Assembly: GCA_014376935.1 (NCBI GenBank)
Contig: JACMQO010000119.1
Location: forward strand, 1 to 35,171
From: Bdellovibrio sp.
Lineage (GTDB): Bacteria; Bdellovibrionota; Bdellovibrionia; Bdellovibrionales; Bdellovibrionaceae
Direction of reading: 5' to 3'
Length of the DNA stretch: 35,171 nt
Below are positions 5,376 to 27,190 of this stretch, piece after piece. The notes under the pieces were generated by a model. The model was given only the letters and a program-made list of their open reading frames with translations, ran no database searches and had not been told where the DNA came from. Position numbers and translations under genes: made by a program. Positions within the stretch are counted from its first letter, which is position 1. The number at the start of each line of letters is the position of its first letter.

Positions 5376-6261
5376 TTTTTTTCTTTTTATAGCACCCGTT
5401 ACGGCATTAGCAAGCGCTTGCTGCGGTGGGGGCTTTGCGATGCCGGCATTAATCACGGGCGACGACCACGCGACGGTGACGACATCGTATTCGTATTCAA
5501 AAGTCGATAGCGATGTGACCGACGCGGGCGTTTGGATTAAGCGTAACAATGATGATTTAACGTCTAAGGTTTTTAAGATAGATGGCGCTTTTGTTTTTGA
5601 TGATCGGTACCAGGCGGGTCTTTCTGTTCCGATTCAAACCCGCTCGAAGCAGGGCGGGTTTAGTGAAGACTCAACCGGTTTAGGGGATGTATCAGCTTTA
5701 GCCGGCTACGAATATTTACCAGATTGGGATTATAATCCGTGGCGTCCCCACGGAGTCGGATTTTTAACTTTAACGTTACCTACGGGTAAATCAATTCAAG
5801 AGACCCAAACAGTCTCGGGCATCGATGGTCGCGGGCGGGGATTTTGGGCCTTGGGTGTTGGAACGACGCTGACGAAAGCATGGACCGTGTGGGATGGCAA
5901 TTCGACTTTTGAAGTGCATCGCTCGTTTGATAAAACCGTTCATAACGCGCAAATTGATGGTACAATTAAGCCAGGTTACGGTGGCAGTTTCGTTATGGGC
6001 GCTGGGTACAACATTAAAGGCTTACGTTTAGGAACAACACTTTCTTGGAACTACGAAGACGCGATCAACGTGGTTGGTAATAATTCATCAGATGGGTCTG
6101 TTGAACGTTTTGCAACCGGAACAGTGTCTGCCAGCTACATGTTTAAAGAATCGTGGGCCGCGACAGCTAGCTATTCGGATCAAACATTATTTGGAGATCC
6201 GACACGGACGACGTTATCAAAAATTGTTGCCGTATCGCTTCAAAAAAGATGGACACGATGA
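5338..6261 (+). CDS. Outer-membrane beta-barrel protein with a CCGGG mature N-terminus
   Basis: 307 aa. I choose ATG 5338, inside the end of the lipoprotein gene, because it yields a proper signal peptide (MLLNRSIKKLVFSFFLFIAP, then VTALASA). The mature chain begins at or near CCGGG (Cys28, Cys29). The rest is rich in alternating amphipathic strands with Gly/Tyr/Trp/Thr, as in beta-barrels, and ends on a strand-like segment, VAVSLQKRW. Its place after a redoxin and a copper-type lipoprotein suggests metal passage or sensing at the outer membrane. I do not recognise a named family. Confidence 0.65.
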   Translation: MLLNRSIKKLVFSFFLFIAPVTALASACCGGGFAMPALITGDDHATVTTSYSYSKVDSDVTDAGVWIKRNNDDLTSKVFKIDGAFVFDDRYQAGLSVPIQTRSKQGGFSEDSTGLGDVSALAGYEYLPDWDYNPWRPHGVGFLTLTLPTGKSIQETQTVSGIDGRGRGFWALGVGTTLTKAWTVWDGNSTFEVHRSFDKTVHNAQIDGTIKPGYGGSFVMGAGYNIKGLRLGTTLSWNYEDAINVVGNNSSDGSVERFATGTVSASYMFKESWAATASYSDQTLFGDPTRTTLSKIVAVSLQKRWTR

Positions 6262-6497
6262 AATCAAAATCAGAAACAGAGATTGAATTTAAAAAATCAA
6301 AGACAACAATGAAAGCTTTTTTACGTTCTTTTTTAATGCCGACGTTGATTGGTAAGTCTTTGGTTTTGTATTTCGGAATTAATTATTCATTATCGCCTGA
6401 TGAAGGCTATGGGTACGGTTTGGCGGCGTCGATCGCTTTTACTTTTTGCTCTTTAGTTTTGTTTGCCTGGAAATATCGTAATCACGAAGAACTTTAA
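6258..6497 (+). CDS. Small two-helix membrane protein
   Basis: 79 aa from ATG 6258, which overlaps the stop of the beta-barrel gene as ATGA. A basic N-terminus (KSKSETEIEFKKSK) precedes two likely membrane helices (about 25-42 and 51-68). No family is recognised. Coupled translation with the beta-barrel gene suggests a shared role, for instance an inner-membrane partner. Confidence 0.6.
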   Translation: MKSKSETEIEFKKSKTTMKAFLRSFLMPTLIGKSLVLYFGINYSLSPDEGYGYGLAASIAFTFCSLVLFAWKYRNHEEL

Positions 6498-6554
6498 TTT
6501 CTAGAGGGCGGCATTTCGTTGCTTTTTGCGGCCGCATCATGAAAACTAAACCCT

Positions 6555-7856
6555 ATGACTGGAATACTAAACGCTCCCTTTGAGATTAAATATTTAGCGA
6601 CCGGCTTTTTTGCAGTCGCATTACTTCATACTTTTGTAGTTTCTTACTTTGCCAAATTATCCCATCAATACAAAGAAGGTTCGGCCGCCGAAGCTTTTTT
6701 TCACCTGATGGCTGAAGTAGAAGTCGTTTTTGGTTTTTGGGCTTTCTTGTTTTTAATGACGTGGGGCATTTTGTTAGGACCCACCGACGTTATTCACTAT
6801 CAGCAATCATTAAATATGACCGAGCCTTTATTTATTTTTTGTGTCATGATTTTAGCATCGACTCGGCCCGTACTGATGTTGGCTCGACAAACTATTTTAG
6901 CCATTAGCGGTCGTCTTGCGAAGATCATTCCCGTACCTGCGGTGACGCTTCAGTTCTACATTTTAATGACACTGGGTACCTTTTTAGGTTCGCTGATCAC
7001 CGAGCCTGCGGCGATTACGATCGCGGCTTTGTTACTATATAAAATGATAGATGCAGAGAAAATTGATCAGACGCTATTGTATGGATCTATTGGTTTACTT
7101 TTCGTGAATATTTCTGTTGGTGGTGCTTTAACCCACTTCGCGGCACCGCCCATTTTGGTGGTGGCGCGCACGTGGAACTGGGGATTGGTCGATGTTTTTT
7201 TAAATTTAGGTGAAGCCTCGATTGCGACAGTTTTAATAAATGCGACCTTGTTTACGGTTCTATTTCATAAAAAAATCAAGCAGCAGCTAAGCCCTTTGCA
7301 AACGACCACGGGTAAAATGCCGGTGTGGGTGACAGTCGCTCATTTATTATTTTTAGTGGCTTTCGTTGCGACGGCCCATTATGAAAAAGTATTTTTTGGA
7401 TTATTTTTAATTTTTATCGGGTTAACGACGGTGACGCGCAAGTACCAAGACGCTTTAAAATTTAAAGAAGCATTGCTCGTTGCATTTTTCTTAAGTGGTT
7501 TAATTGTTTTTGGTTCATTTCAAAGATGGTGGCTTGAGCCGATCATTTTAGCTTTGACCGAAAAAGCATTATTCTTTAGTGCCATTGCTTTGACCGCAAT
7601 CACTGATAATGCGGCTTTAACTTATTTAGGTTCGCAGGTTCCGAGTTTAACTGACGCATCGAAGTGGGCCTTAGTATCTGGAGCCATCACGGGAGGTGGT
7701 TTAACGATTCTAGCCAACGCGCCCAATCCTGCAGGCTTTTCGATATTAAGTTCTAAATTTCCAAGCAAAAGCTTGAATGCCGGAAAACTTTTACTGGCGG
7801 CCCTAGTTCCCACGCTGATTGCGACGGGTTGCTTTTTAATTCTTGGAAAATTCTAG
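6555..7856 (+). CDS. Putative Na+/H+ antiporter (NhaD/ArsB-like ion transporter)
   Basis: 433 aa, with about 11 hydrophobic segments. Two internal repeats carry ion-transporter-like re-entrant motifs: LITEPAAITIAALLLYK (about 144-160) in the first half and TDNAALTYLGSQ (about 347-358) followed by ANAPNPAGFSI in the second. These charged and Asn/Pro elements inside membrane segments resemble the NhaD/NhaB superfamily and the uncharacterised 'putative Na+/H+ antiporter' family. The ion specificity is not shown. A 57-base gap separates it from the small membrane protein gene, so it may belong to the same transcript. A hairpin terminator follows. Confidence 0.7.
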   Translation: MTGILNAPFEIKYLATGFFAVALLHTFVVSYFAKLSHQYKEGSAAEAFFHLMAEVEVVFGFWAFLFLMTWGILLGPTDVIHYQQSLNMTEPLFIFCVMILASTRPVLMLARQTILAISGRLAKIIPVPAVTLQFYILMTLGTFLGSLITEPAAITIAALLLYKMIDAEKIDQTLLYGSIGLLFVNISVGGALTHFAAPPILVVARTWNWGLVDVFLNLGEASIATVLINATLFTVLFHKKIKQQLSPLQTTTGKMPVWVTVAHLLFLVAFVATAHYEKVFFGLFLIFIGLTTVTRKYQDALKFKEALLVAFFLSGLIVFGSFQRWWLEPIILALTEKALFFSAIALTAITDNAALTYLGSQVPSLTDASKWALVSGAITGGGLTILANAPNPAGFSILSSKFPSKSLNAGKLLLAALVPTLIATGCFLILGKF

Positions 7857-20566: not shown

Positions 20567-21349
20567 ATGAATTCACTCATGAACGAAACGGTGAATTCAT
20601 TTTCAGTCTTCTTAAAACAAGAATTACAAAGGCGTAAAAATAAAAATGCCGGGTATTCGTTACGGGCCTTTGCCAAGTCTTTAGGGTTAAGCTCTTCGTT
20701 TGTTTCAAAAGTTCTAAATGCAAAAAAAAACGTTTCTCAAGAAACAATGATGGCGATTGCATCTCGATTGTCAGTCGACGAAGACTCTTTGCACGACTAT
20801 TTAAGTCAGTTGCCGAATTTTAAATTAAAGAATATGGAGTTTGAAACCGTCGCGGTTGATCAGTTTCAGTATATTTCGGATTGGCATCATTTCGCGATTT
20901 TAGAAGCGGTTAGCTTAACAGATTTTAAAGCGGATATGAAGGATCAGTCGAAGTGGTTTGCCGAGCGCCTCAGTATTAGCGAAGAGCGGGCCTCGTCGGC
21001 CGTGCAGCGGTTAGTCCGTTTAGGTCTTTTAACTACCAACGACAAAGGGCAAGTTTTAGGAATCCAAAAAAATCACACAACGATTGGCGGGGTTCCGTCG
21101 TCGGCCAATCGCGAACATGAGCGACAACTTTTACAAAAAGCGATCGAGGCTTTAGAAGAAGTTCCTGTCGTGGACCGAAGCAATTCGTCGATGACGATGG
21201 CAATCCCCATGTCGCGCGTGAAAGAAGCCCGCGAAAAGATAATTGCCTTTCAAAGAGAAATGTCGACATTTTTGCAAAGAAAAGGAAAAAGAGATTCAGT
21301 TTATCAGTTGTCGATCGCGTTTTTTCCATTAACTAAAAAAATGAATTAA
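20567..21349 (+). CDS. DUF4423/TIGR02147-type transcriptional regulator
   Basis: 260 aa. An XRE-like helix-turn-helix opens the protein (about 25-75, AFAKSLGLSSSFVSKVLN). A second domain, DUF4423-like, follows, with ISDWHHFAILEAVSL at about 102-116 and the usual ending: REKIIAFQREMSTFL, then VYQLSIAFFPLTK. This family is numerous in Bdellovibrio and Fibrobacter; targets are mostly unknown. It lies 28 bases before the tandem-repeat secreted protein gene, its likely co-transcribed partner. An ATG at 20579 is an alternative start. Confidence 0.8.
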   Translation: MNSLMNETVNSFSVFLKQELQRRKNKNAGYSLRAFAKSLGLSSSFVSKVLNAKKNVSQETMMAIASRLSVDEDSLHDYLSQLPNFKLKNMEFETVAVDQFQYISDWHHFAILEAVSLTDFKADMKDQSKWFAERLSISEERASSAVQRLVRLGLLTTNDKGQVLGIQKNHTTIGGVPSSANREHERQLLQKAIEALEEVPVVDRSNSSMTMAIPMSRVKEAREKIIAFQREMSTFLQRKGKRDSVYQLSIAFFPLTKKMN

Positions 21350-21377: not shown

Positions 21378-21806
21378 ATGAAAATTATTTTTGTAACTTT
21401 ATTAGCGGTATCAAGTTTAGCTTTTGGCGGGCAAGAAAATGCGGGTATCGGATACAACCTTTATAATCCGGGCGCTATTTACGAAGCGTTAAACGTTGAA
21501 GCGGTGGCCCTTAACCCAGGTGTCGCGGGTGTTGGACACTTTAGAAAAACAGTTGGTGGTTTAACTTGTGAGAAGTCGACTATTATTATGCCGAATGCTA
21601 AACCGAAATACTCTTGCGAAATTGATCAAAAAGCTGAGAATTTCGGAGCGATTTACGAAGCTTTAAAAGCTAAAGTAAAAGTATTAAATCCTGGTATCGT
21701 TGGCGCAGCCCGTTTACAGAAATCAGTCGGTGGTTTGTCTTGTATTAAAGCGACAATCGTCGTTCCACAAGCGAAACCTAGCTACTCTTGCACAATGGTT
21801 GATTAG
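21378..21806 (+). CDS. Secreted protein made of two cysteine-bearing tandem repeats
   Basis: 142 aa. The ribosome-binding site is strong (AAGGAG before ATG) and the signal peptide clear (MKIIFVTLLAVSSLAFG). The mature protein is two copies of one ~52-residue unit: 32-83 and 90-142. Each copy has GAIYEAL, then LNPG, then K-[TS]-VGGL-[TS]-C, and ends KP-x-YSC. Cysteines 64/80 and 122/138 have the same 16-residue spacing, consistent with one disulfide per repeat. No known family is recognised. It follows the DUF4423 regulator. Confidence 0.8.
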   Translation: MKIIFVTLLAVSSLAFGGQENAGIGYNLYNPGAIYEALNVEAVALNPGVAGVGHFRKTVGGLTCEKSTIIMPNAKPKYSCEIDQKAENFGAIYEALKAKVKVLNPGIVGAARLQKSVGGLSCIKATIVVPQAKPSYSCTMVD

Positions 21807-25042: not shown

Positions 25043-25090
25043 ATTTTTTTCTAAAAATAAACGTCTCGGTCTGAGACAAAATGAAAATGA

Positions 25091-25116
25091 AAGGCGATCT
25101 GATAGATCGCCTTTTT
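25091..25116 (+). terminator. Intrinsic terminator after the OmpA-like gene
   Basis: Stem AAGGCGATCT/AGATCGCCTT (25091-25100 and 25104-25113), 3-base loop, then a run of T (25112-25117). A textbook rho-independent terminator. Confidence 0.88.
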
Positions 25117-25203: not shown

Positions 25204-25252
25204 AATCTTAAGTGCTTTGTAGAGTCTTCGATCTAACATGGGGTGTACGTTG

Positions 25253-27124
25253 ATGAAGTTATTTTTAATTTACATGGTATCGATGTTTATTCCTTTTTCA
25301 TTCGCTCAGGCCCAAAGCCCCGTCGTTGCGGGGGAATATATCGTTAAAATGAAGGCGCAGGCCGGTGTAACGGCTAATTCGCGTATCAGCAAAGGTTTAA
25401 AGTTAGTCAGTAAATTAGGTTCTTCAGTCAGCGTGAAGCAAGCTTTCTGGGGTTCTACGATGATGCATATTCGCAGTGATTCTCAAGCTAGCATTGAATC
25501 GTTACGCGCAAATCCCGACGTTGAATTCGTCGAACCCAATTATATTTTAAGTTTAGAGCCAAATGATATTCAGCCGTTTGGTGTAGCTCCGCAAAATACG
25601 GATAGCTATGGCCAATCCGGCTCAGGCACTCAGGTCGCTCAGGCATGGAATATCGAAAAACCTTACAATCAAGGAACGAAAACAATCGTCGCCATTATCG
25701 ATACGGGTTTAGATACGACACATCATTTATTTGCGGACTCAAATGCGATTTGGGAAAATACTGTTGAAAGAAATGGTGTTGCCGGCGTCGATGACGATGG
25801 CAATGGTTATATTGATGATTTTAACGGATGGAACTACGTTGCTAACTCAAACAATGTCTACGATGACGACGATCACGGTACGCATGTGGCGGGCATCGTT
25901 CTAGGCGTTGGGCAAGATATTTTAAAATCCAGCGTTCGTGAATCTAAAATCGTCATTATGCCCTTGAAGTTTTTAGATTCGCATGGCTCAGGTACAACCG
26001 CTAGCGCAGTGAATGCGATTTACTACGCGGTCAACATGGGTGCCAAGGTTATTAATAACTCTTGGGGTGGGCCTTCATATTCAAAGTCTTTGCATGATGC
26101 TTATACTTACGCACACACGCATGGTGTTTTTATTTCATCAGCCGCCGGTAACGGAAATTCACAAGGTGTTGGCCAAAATAATGATTCGGTCGCGATGTAT
26201 CCCGCAAATTTAGATACTCCGAATAATATGTCCGTCGCGGCATCGACAGATTCAAATACAAAAGCATCATTTTCAAATTACGGAACCAGCGTTCAAGTGG
26301 CATCTCCAGGTGTATCGATCACTAGCTCTGTGCCGGGAACGGGCTGTGCGGCTCCGGGTTGTTTTCAGTTGATGTCAGGAACTTCCATGGCGGCTCCGTT
26401 CGTTGCGGGAATGGCGGCGTTAATTCTACGAGAAGCTCCGCAACTAACAGGGTACCAAGTTAAAAATATAATTATGAGTTCGGTCGACCTGTTTGCTTCC
26501 TTAAATAGTTACGTAGCGACGCAAGGTCGTGTGAATATCTATAAGGCCATTCAGAATGCGCAAACGCAAACTGGCACAGCCGCGTACAATCCAAATTATA
26601 CACCAGTTTATAAAACAGACCGAAGTATTGCTTCTGCGGCCGATAGCGCGGCGAAAGGCTGCGGATTAGTCAAAGCTGCTCAAGAAGTTTCTGATTCAGG
26701 CAAAGGTCCAACGAATGGTGTCGGCGGAAATATCGCCGTGATGTTCTTGATGATTTTATTACCATTATCGTTAGCATTTAGCCTGCGTAAAAAAGTTGAA
26801 GTTCCGGCCAATGCGGGAATCGTAAGACGTAAATTTGCGCGCTATAACTTAGCGAAAGATCTCGTGTTACAAATCGGTGACCAAGTGGTGAACGTGGCTT
26901 CAGAGACATTATCTTTGGGTGGCCTATCGTTTTCGGGTACCGAGGCAATGCAGATTAATAAAGGTGAAAAAATCAGAGTCAAAATCGTCGAGCTAGATCA
27001 CGAAGTTGAAGGTGAAGTTGTTTGGTGTTCGGCGAAACAATCTTACGGCGTAAAGTTCTTAACGATTTCAGATCAGCTGAAAGATCACTTTGCAGCATGG
27101 ACGGTGGGGTTAAGTCCAACGTAA
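25253..27124 (+). CDS. Membrane-anchored subtilisin-like protease fused to a PilZ domain
   Basis: 623 aa from ATG 25253, which has GGGGTG upstream (ATG 25238 is an alternative). In order: signal peptide (1-20); I9-type propeptide (about 27-100, ending VEFVEPNYIL); S8 domain with Asp150 (AIIDTGLD), His208 (DHGTHVAGI), oxyanion Asn300 (AAGNGN) and Ser378 (GTSMAAPFVAG); a Ser/Ala-rich linker with a CG motif (470-471); one membrane helix (about 493-511) followed by RKK; and a PilZ-like domain (about 525-621) with RRKFAR and ETLSLGGLSF. The predicted topology is protease outside, PilZ inside, so c-di-GMP could control the protease or its release. The PilZ signature is slightly degenerate. The hydrophobic stretch plus CG also looks like a C-terminal sorting signal. 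Confidence 0.88.
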   Translation: MKLFLIYMVSMFIPFSFAQAQSPVVAGEYIVKMKAQAGVTANSRISKGLKLVSKLGSSVSVKQAFWGSTMMHIRSDSQASIESLRANPDVEFVEPNYILSLEPNDIQPFGVAPQNTDSYGQSGSGTQVAQAWNIEKPYNQGTKTIVAIIDTGLDTTHHLFADSNAIWENTVERNGVAGVDDDGNGYIDDFNGWNYVANSNNVYDDDDHGTHVAGIVLGVGQDILKSSVRESKIVIMPLKFLDSHGSGTTASAVNAIYYAVNMGAKVINNSWGGPSYSKSLHDAYTYAHTHGVFISSAAGNGNSQGVGQNNDSVAMYPANLDTPNNMSVAASTDSNTKASFSNYGTSVQVASPGVSITSSVPGTGCAAPGCFQLMSGTSMAAPFVAGMAALILREAPQLTGYQVKNIIMSSVDLFASLNSYVATQGRVNIYKAIQNAQTQTGTAAYNPNYTPVYKTDRSIASAADSAAKGCGLVKAAQEVSDSGKGPTNGVGGNIAVMFLMILLPLSLAFSLRKKVEVPANAGIVRRKFARYNLAKDLVLQIGDQVVNVASETLSLGGLSFSGTEAMQINKGEKIRVKIVELDHEVEGEVVWCSAKQSYGVKFLTISDQLKDHFAAWTVGLSPT

Positions 27125-27156: not shown

Positions 27157-27190
27157 AAAAAGCCCACTTTTCGAAGTGGGCTTTTTTTTT
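27157..27190. terminator. Bidirectional intrinsic terminator
   Basis: Stem AAGCCCACTT against AAGTGGGCTT with a TTCG loop (27170-27173), flanked by an A run on one side and nine T on the other. It ends both the subtilase gene (plus) and mgtE (minus). Confidence 0.88.

Follow-up and report, generated by a model that had tools for sequence, protein, structure and literature searches.

A subtilisin-like protease and a PilZ domain joined by what looks like a C-terminal sorting tag in Bdellovibrionia

How might a signal in the cytoplasm reach a protease that is exported from it? The question is raised by a 35,171-nucleotide stretch of DNA from a Bdellovibrio species (hereafter the window), in which one gene encodes a subtilisin-like (S8) protease and a PilZ domain in a single chain. 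A preliminary description took the product for an inside-out device, in which cytoplasmic c-di-GMP tunes an extracytoplasmic protease. The observation underlying that proposal is confirmed and its interpretation partly supported: the domain order, the topology and the PilZ fold stood, whereas allosteric tuning does not fit best, the joint between the two domains looking like a sorting tag common to proteins that have no PilZ domain.

The features of the S8-PilZ gene and protein are collected in Table 1. Residues are numbered from the first of two in-frame start codons (628-residue numbering); the second is preceded by the better purine stretch. The S8 domain (residues 146–416) scores 174.8 bits against a Pfam cut-off of 21.8, and the catalytic triad and the oxyanion asparagine are all in place; an intact S8 domain behind a signal peptide had been described previously. 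Hydropathy reveals two hydrophobic peaks in the chain, namely the signal peptide and one helix, which bears out the single transmembrane helix followed by RKK. The full-length AlphaFold2 model is poor (pLDDT 54) and supports the order of helices and strands only.

Table 1. Coordinates of the S8-PilZ gene, its protein features and the flanking hairpins in the window.
Feature	Position	Strand	Remarks
Coding sequence, S8 protease-GCG-transmembrane helix-PilZ	25253..27124	+	623 aa, or 628 aa from an earlier in-frame ATG at 25238
Predicted signal peptide MKLFLIYMVSMFIPFSFAQAQ	25253..25315	+	signal-peptidase-I-type end AQA; hydropathy peak, sequence
Propeptide, I9/fervidolysin-type prodomain	25316..25549	+	below Pfam cut-off here; above cut-off in relatives L042, L151 and L153
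Peptidase S8 catalytic domain	25673..26485	+	Pfam E 3e-51; nearest solved structure deseasin MCP-01 (3vv3)
Catalytic Asp155	25700..25702	+	conserved column
Catalytic His213	25874..25876	+	conserved column
Oxyanion Asn305	26150..26152	+	conserved column
Catalytic Ser383 (GTSMA)	26384..26386	+	conserved column
Invariant Gly-Cys-Gly, residues 474–476	26657..26665	+	47/47 family members; also in unrelated proteins
Single transmembrane helix, about residues 499–516	26732..26785	+	hydropathy peak at about residues 495–516
Invariant helix-breaking Pro509	26762-26764	+	within the transmembrane helix; family alignment
RKK, residues 517–519	26786..26794	+	positive-inside flank after the helix, cytoplasmic side
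PilZ domain, residues 530–621	26825..27100	+	Pfam; AlphaFold2 and Foldseek
PilZ motif 1, RxxxR (RKFAR)	26828..26842	+	47/47
PilZ motif 2, TLSLGG	26906..26923	+	TxSxxG in place of [D/N]xSxxG; motif count in family
Terminator-like hairpin 3' of the upstream OmpA-family gene	25089..25115	+	hairpin scan
Terminator-like hairpin between the S8-PilZ gene and the convergent mgtE-like gene	27157..27186		scan: - strand; palindrome also T-followed on +

The gene stands alone, with a hairpin on either side and a convergent gene downstream; because the upstream hairpin follows the OmpA-family gene, no read-through operon is expected. Operon or neighbor context was rejected as a clue to function, as the flanking genes lie on the opposite strand or behind terminators and the neighbors (mgtE-like, DUF502, ABC transporter pair) are conserved within the family only. 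The window also encodes a putative transcription regulator with HTH_3 and DUF4423 domains (20567–21349, + strand; E 4e-41); the 142-residue frame behind it (21378–21806) has no match above cut-off.

The C-terminal domain is recognized as PilZ by both profile and fold. It scores 45.5–49.8 bits against a Pfam cut-off of 22.5, with an E-value of 1e-11 in the whole protein and of 5e-13 for the C-terminal part alone. Modeled by AlphaFold2, the last 114 residues (mean pLDDT 76) form a beta-barrel with a C-terminal helix, and the best matches in the PDB are PilZ domains solved with c-di-GMP (4xrn and the Alg44 entries 4rt0/4rt1; Foldseek probability 1.00, TM about 0.6). MotI/DgrA (5vx6) is near the top of the structural matches and is the sole match by sequence profile. 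RxxxR is present in all 47 members, and its two arginines belong to the roughly eight columns of the PilZ region that never vary; in motif 2, the serine and Gly-Gly are almost constant. The D/N position of motif 2 is occupied by threonine or serine in about nine tenths of the members, by D in three and by N in one. Binding of c-di-GMP by the domain is plausible. Inspection of motifs cannot settle it, because c-di-GMP is bound by PixB of Myxococcus, whose two PilZ domains are both substituted in motif 2, while PlpA has the motifs and does not bind (PMC8316039).

The substitution in motif 2 would also suit a PilZ domain that no longer senses c-di-GMP and instead serves as a docking module, placing the protease at a cell pole or in a complex through protein contacts. 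We find this improbable: pockets that have lost their function usually decay, yet RxxxR is retained throughout the family and the serine and Gly-Gly of motif 2 nearly so, and the altered motif 2 of PixB does not prevent binding. The window's own genome gives six GGDEF matches. Bdellovibrio has been reported to encode about 15 PilZ proteins and few enzymes that make c-di-GMP, the signal controlling its life-phase switches (PMC3271064). In B. bacteriovorus, expression of the pilZ genes Bd2524, Bd2545 and Bd3100 goes down on leaving attack phase (PMC2797640), but none of the three could be matched to the S8-PilZ gene; control of the protease by predation phase, as the preliminary description proposed, is a guess.

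Nearly all larger genomes of the class Bdellovibrionia contain a single-copy S8-PilZ protein. When 60 relatives were searched with the C-terminal 174 residues, 56 of them, single-contig genomes included, gave exactly one match, with the same domain order, and nearly all matches in the 60 lie within open frames of 597–698 residues. This recurrence in single-contig genomes and across dozens of genera rules out an assembly artefact or a chance fusion. Among 369 genomes of the phylum, a profile of this C-terminal region (A2) found full-length S8-PilZ versions nowhere but in the order to which the window belongs and in one further family of its class; elsewhere in the phylum it matched separate PilZ proteins only. 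The S8 relatives outside the phylum, in the named genomes searched, do not align past about residue 490. Since the architecture is conserved class-wide, a link between a cytoplasmic signal and an exported protease is likely.

The S8-PilZ protein is absent from near-complete reduced genomes of 1.2–2.0 Mb (G231, G232 and G258–G260). In the wider set of reduced genomes of that size, all of one family (G231, G232, G238–G241 and G257–G260), the protease has been lost and one or two rhomboids are left. Most reduced genomes retain GGDEF proteins, one to three each, and we rejected protease loss as a sign of lost c-di-GMP signaling for this reason.

Between the protease and the PilZ domain lies an element that had escaped the preliminary description. 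In all 47 true family members (four unrelated rows were excluded from the count), a Gly-Cys-Gly motif, usually GCG[L/M]V, is found just before the helix. The stretch from this motif to the helix varies freely between 16 and 32 residues across the family, and the linker between protease and helix is rich in Gly, Ser and Pro and disordered. Pro509 of the helix is invariant.

A profile of the tail alone (A3), run on 30 relatives, matched other proteins too, and a second profile to which these bearers had been added (A4) found further ones outside its own building set (L223–L229 and L237). The same succession of GCG, linker, Pro-containing helix and basic residues stands at the extreme C-terminus of secreted proteins of the class that have no PilZ domain. 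These comprise other S8 proteases (L151, L153 and L157), an LPMO-like protein (L156), M10 matrixin metalloproteases (L164, L224 and L226–L229) and AgmC-like proteins of about 530 residues (L152, L154, L155, L223, L225 and L237), the three scanned of which gave no Pfam match. The matrixins are short, with about 250–300 residues. They are apparently the Bdellovibrionia counterpart of myxosortase-dependent metalloproteases; L164 weakly matches the NCBIfam model of that name (NF041905). A weak match was also obtained between L156 and NF043005, which is named after a Sorangium protein; both NCBIfam families are myxobacterial. In the window's own genome, profile A4 detected no second protein with a GCG tail.

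Known tags of this tripartite architecture are LPXTG, PEP-CTERM, GlyGly-CTERM and MYXO-CTERM. Tags of this kind are found as one suffix on several unrelated secreted families in a lineage, and the tail described here occurs in this way on S8, M10, LPMO-like and AgmC-like proteins. The extreme C-terminal position is held by the PilZ-less bearers and not by the window protein, in which about 95 PilZ residues follow. No NCBIfam sorting-tag model scored above cut-off on the proteins scanned. Alternatively, GCG might not be processed at all, and its cysteine might serve as a site of S-acylation or of an intermolecular disulfide, leaving the protease dimeric or membrane-near with the helix and PilZ domain attached. 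In favor of such a role, the exported part contains no cysteines other than Cys475 and the close pair Cys370/Cys375. We consider this very unlikely, as families without a shared fold end in this same succession of motif, Pro-containing helix and basic residues, and a ‘sequence suffix’ on unrelated proteins is the published hallmark of sorting tags (PMC3237569).

The relation between tail and PilZ domain was followed in a maximum-likelihood tree of the S8 domain. A PilZ-less GCG protease of ‘Deltaproteobacteria bacterium GWA2_38_16’ (L042) falls just outside the S8-PilZ family (99/97), and directly downstream of it no PilZ remnant was found. Two further PilZ-less GCG proteases (L151 in G012 and L153 in G039) are nested within the family and retain the tail of GCG, helix and basic residues. 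The simplest reading of this pattern is that the tag came first, that PilZ joined later, and that two or more subsequent losses of PilZ left the tag in place; the root order rests on a single probable outgroup, L042, and is compatible with a loss in that lineage itself. The tail kept in PilZ-less proteases marks it as a functional unit without PilZ. One other candidate for a PilZ-less member (L041/L118) was discarded because its locus is broken by a contig end. The GWA2_38_16 locus (L042:1-274 and 6001-7563) carries two GCG-tailed frames, the PilZ-less S8 protease and a second frame at the locus edge. Given the same tail on unrelated PilZ-less proteins, the PilZ losses with the tail kept and the outgroup, the stretch that joins the protease to PilZ resembles a C-terminal sorting tag of the MYXO-CTERM/GlyGly-CTERM type for which NCBIfam has no matching model.

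A joint that resembles a sorting tag predicts that the connection between protease and PilZ domain is cleaved. We tentatively favor a reading, whose chances we place somewhat short of even, in which the PilZ domain gates an intramembrane cleavage and so determines whether the protease stays tethered or is released. The S8-PilZ protein would be a membrane-held precursor, its protease exported by the signal peptide. The module of GCG, linker, helix and basic residues would hold the protease in the inner membrane and itself be the sorting tag, with PilZ in the cytoplasm directly behind it. An intramembrane protease, most plausibly a rhomboid, would cut near GCG or in the proline-broken helix. The freed protease would then head to the outer membrane or to the outside, possibly lipid-anchored through the cysteine, and a helix-PilZ stub would be left behind. 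Binding of c-di-GMP to PilZ would control whether or where the cut happens and hence decide between tethering and release. The sensor may thus set when the protease is let go and not how active it is.

This proposal builds on observed features: the domain order, its conservation, the tag on unrelated proteins, the PilZ losses with the tag kept and the PilZ fold. It is favored by the constancy of GCG in all 47 members while the linker length varies, by the invariant arginines of PilZ together with the GGDEF matches in the genome, and by the invariant helix proline, which matches the helix-breaking proline that rhombosortase needs to cleave VesB, a serine protease of Vibrio (PMC11389362). It also has a precedent in the proposal by Haft that tag cleavage could be signal-gated, choosing between a tethered and a released enzyme (PMC3237569). 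Several points argue against it. Known tags of this type end the protein, and a 95-residue domain after the basic cluster is unusual and could block recognition; a dedicated sorting enzyme would have a single substrate in the window's genome, where no other tail protein was found; the D/N position of motif 2 is threonine or serine in most members; and rhomboids, considered below, are universal, with a candidate subfamily that is imperfectly co-distributed.

The allosteric tuning of the preliminary description would have c-di-GMP on PilZ alter the pose of the intact chain, or its oligomeric state, and thereby switch a permanently membrane-bound periplasmic protease. The topology, the single helix, the conserved pocket arginines and the near-universal fusion in the class are all in line with it, as is Alg44, whose PilZ domain is one of the top structural matches and which likewise has a cytoplasmic PilZ domain and a periplasmic part in one single-pass chain. 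A disordered linker of variable length is, however, a poor transmitter of conformational change, and both the invariance of GCG and its presence on unrelated PilZ-less proteins are left unexplained. Because of the floppy linker and the unexplained motif, we rank this mechanism below gated release and regard it as unlikely.

If the tail is cleaved, which enzyme might be responsible? MrtX (NF040593) is absent from all 12 relatives' genomes searched, and CPBP proteases (PF02517) were detected neither in the window's genome nor in 39 of 60 relatives, being present in the other 21. With neither detected in the window's genome, we rejected a myxosortase as its processing enzyme; these two results also indicate that the tail is not part of a MYXO-CTERM system, though similar in look. 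In Gram-negatives, the other class of enzymes known to process such tags is the rhomboids. All 20 genomes tested contain at least one. The rhomboids scored with the rhombosortase model TIGR03902 all fall below its cut-off (28–48 bits against 84), and a rhombosortase equivalog was rejected accordingly.

One rhomboid subfamily (A5; about 310–370 residues, with an extra N-terminal region) is class-specific, almost universal in Bdellovibrionia and nearly co-extensive with the S8-PilZ protein. It is represented in the window's own genome (G000:C103:27677-28606; L245:1939-2931, - strand) and in relatives L246, L248, L250–L253, L255, L256 and L258, and no NCBIfam equivalog model scored above cut-off on its members. 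Both the A5 rhomboid and the S8-PilZ protein are missing from the near-complete reduced genomes G231, G232, G254 and G258–G260. The protease occurs without the rhomboid in G028, G057, G270 and G271, and the rhomboid without the protease in G201. The two distributions agree well but not perfectly, and both genome reduction and shared ancestry confound the comparison; we therefore keep A5 only as a lead to a dedicated enzyme. The universality of rhomboids and the imperfect match of A5 count against gated release.

A broader proposal, which we consider speculative and somewhat unlikely, would have Bdellovibrionia possess a GCG-helix-basic tag of their own that is processed by a rhomboid and not by a CPBP protease; the bearer in which the tag is best conserved would have a c-di-GMP receptor fused to it that directly licenses the release or surface delivery of the protease. 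If true, no earlier sorting tag would have had a signal gate built into it. A near-universal, single-copy protease with PilZ in the same chain offers a short, testable path from a signal to an exported enzyme; the literature searched yielded no report of a c-di-GMP receptor acting on a hydrolase outside the cytoplasm in Bdellovibrio. The GCG tail suggests that these bacteria have a surface-sorting system not described so far. The S8-PilZ protein also gives the 2011 idea of Haft a test case for which one protein suffices, the putative receptor being covalently attached to the tag.

The architecture as such is already known. A subtilase-PilZ protein of B. bacteriovorus, NP_969350.1, was catalogued in 2008 with ‘signalling’ as its likely role in a table (Tripathi and Sowdhamini, PMC2605481); that listing gives no GCG motif, tag, conservation or mechanism. 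The domain order is that of the window protein, of which NP_969350.1 is most likely an orthologue, given a single copy in almost every larger genome of the class. The literature searched mentions neither the conservation of one copy across the class nor the GCG tail or its occurrence on further secreted proteins, a statement to be taken with caution as coverage was partial.

Among known systems, MYXO-CTERM resembles the tail. It has an invariant cysteine within a motif of the general form GCGC, together with a helix and arginines, and is cleaved in a Cys-dependent manner by the CPBP protease MrtX (PMC11980579). The window protein shares with it (TIGR03901/NF040593) the signal peptide, the Cys-Gly motif with its invariant cysteine, the single helix and the basic cluster, and some bearer families correspond, such as the matrixin-type metalloprotease. 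By contrast, bearers number dozens per genome there and one to three here, PilZ follows the basic cluster in the window protein, and TIGR03901 gave no match above cut-off in 12 genomes, the window's own included, or in the tagged proteins scanned.

The GlyGly-CTERM protein VesB of Vibrio cholerae (TIGR03501/TIGR03902; PMC3237569, PMC11389362) is likewise a secreted serine protease with a pro-domain, a disordered Gly-rich linker, a Pro-containing helix and a basic end, and a rhomboid is the likely processor. It differs in having no cytoplasmic domain, and the curation criteria for GlyGly-CTERM require a Cys-free motif, whereas a cysteine is present here. With the TIGR03501 model, whose cut-off is 15.5 bits, the tail of one PilZ-less S8 protease (L157) scores 11.8.

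The preliminary description saw LapD-LapG logic in one chain. Cytoplasmic c-di-GMP does control the outcome of extracytoplasmic proteolysis in LapD-LapG, and a link between a cytoplasmic signal and the exported protease is likely here. That system differs in that it consists of two proteins, a degenerate GGDEF/EAL receptor and a sequestered cysteine protease, with neither PilZ nor a sorting tag. LapD-type receptor domains (degenerate GGDEF/EAL, HAMP and the periplasmic protease-binding domain) were not found in the window protein, where S8 and PilZ are the only Pfam matches above cut-off. LapD-LapG is a weak analogy, and Alg44 of Pseudomonas aeruginosa a closer one: its PilZ domain is N-terminal and its periplasmic part is not a protease, but a cytoplasmic PilZ domain is joined, as in the S8-PilZ protein, by one helix to an extracytoplasmic part.
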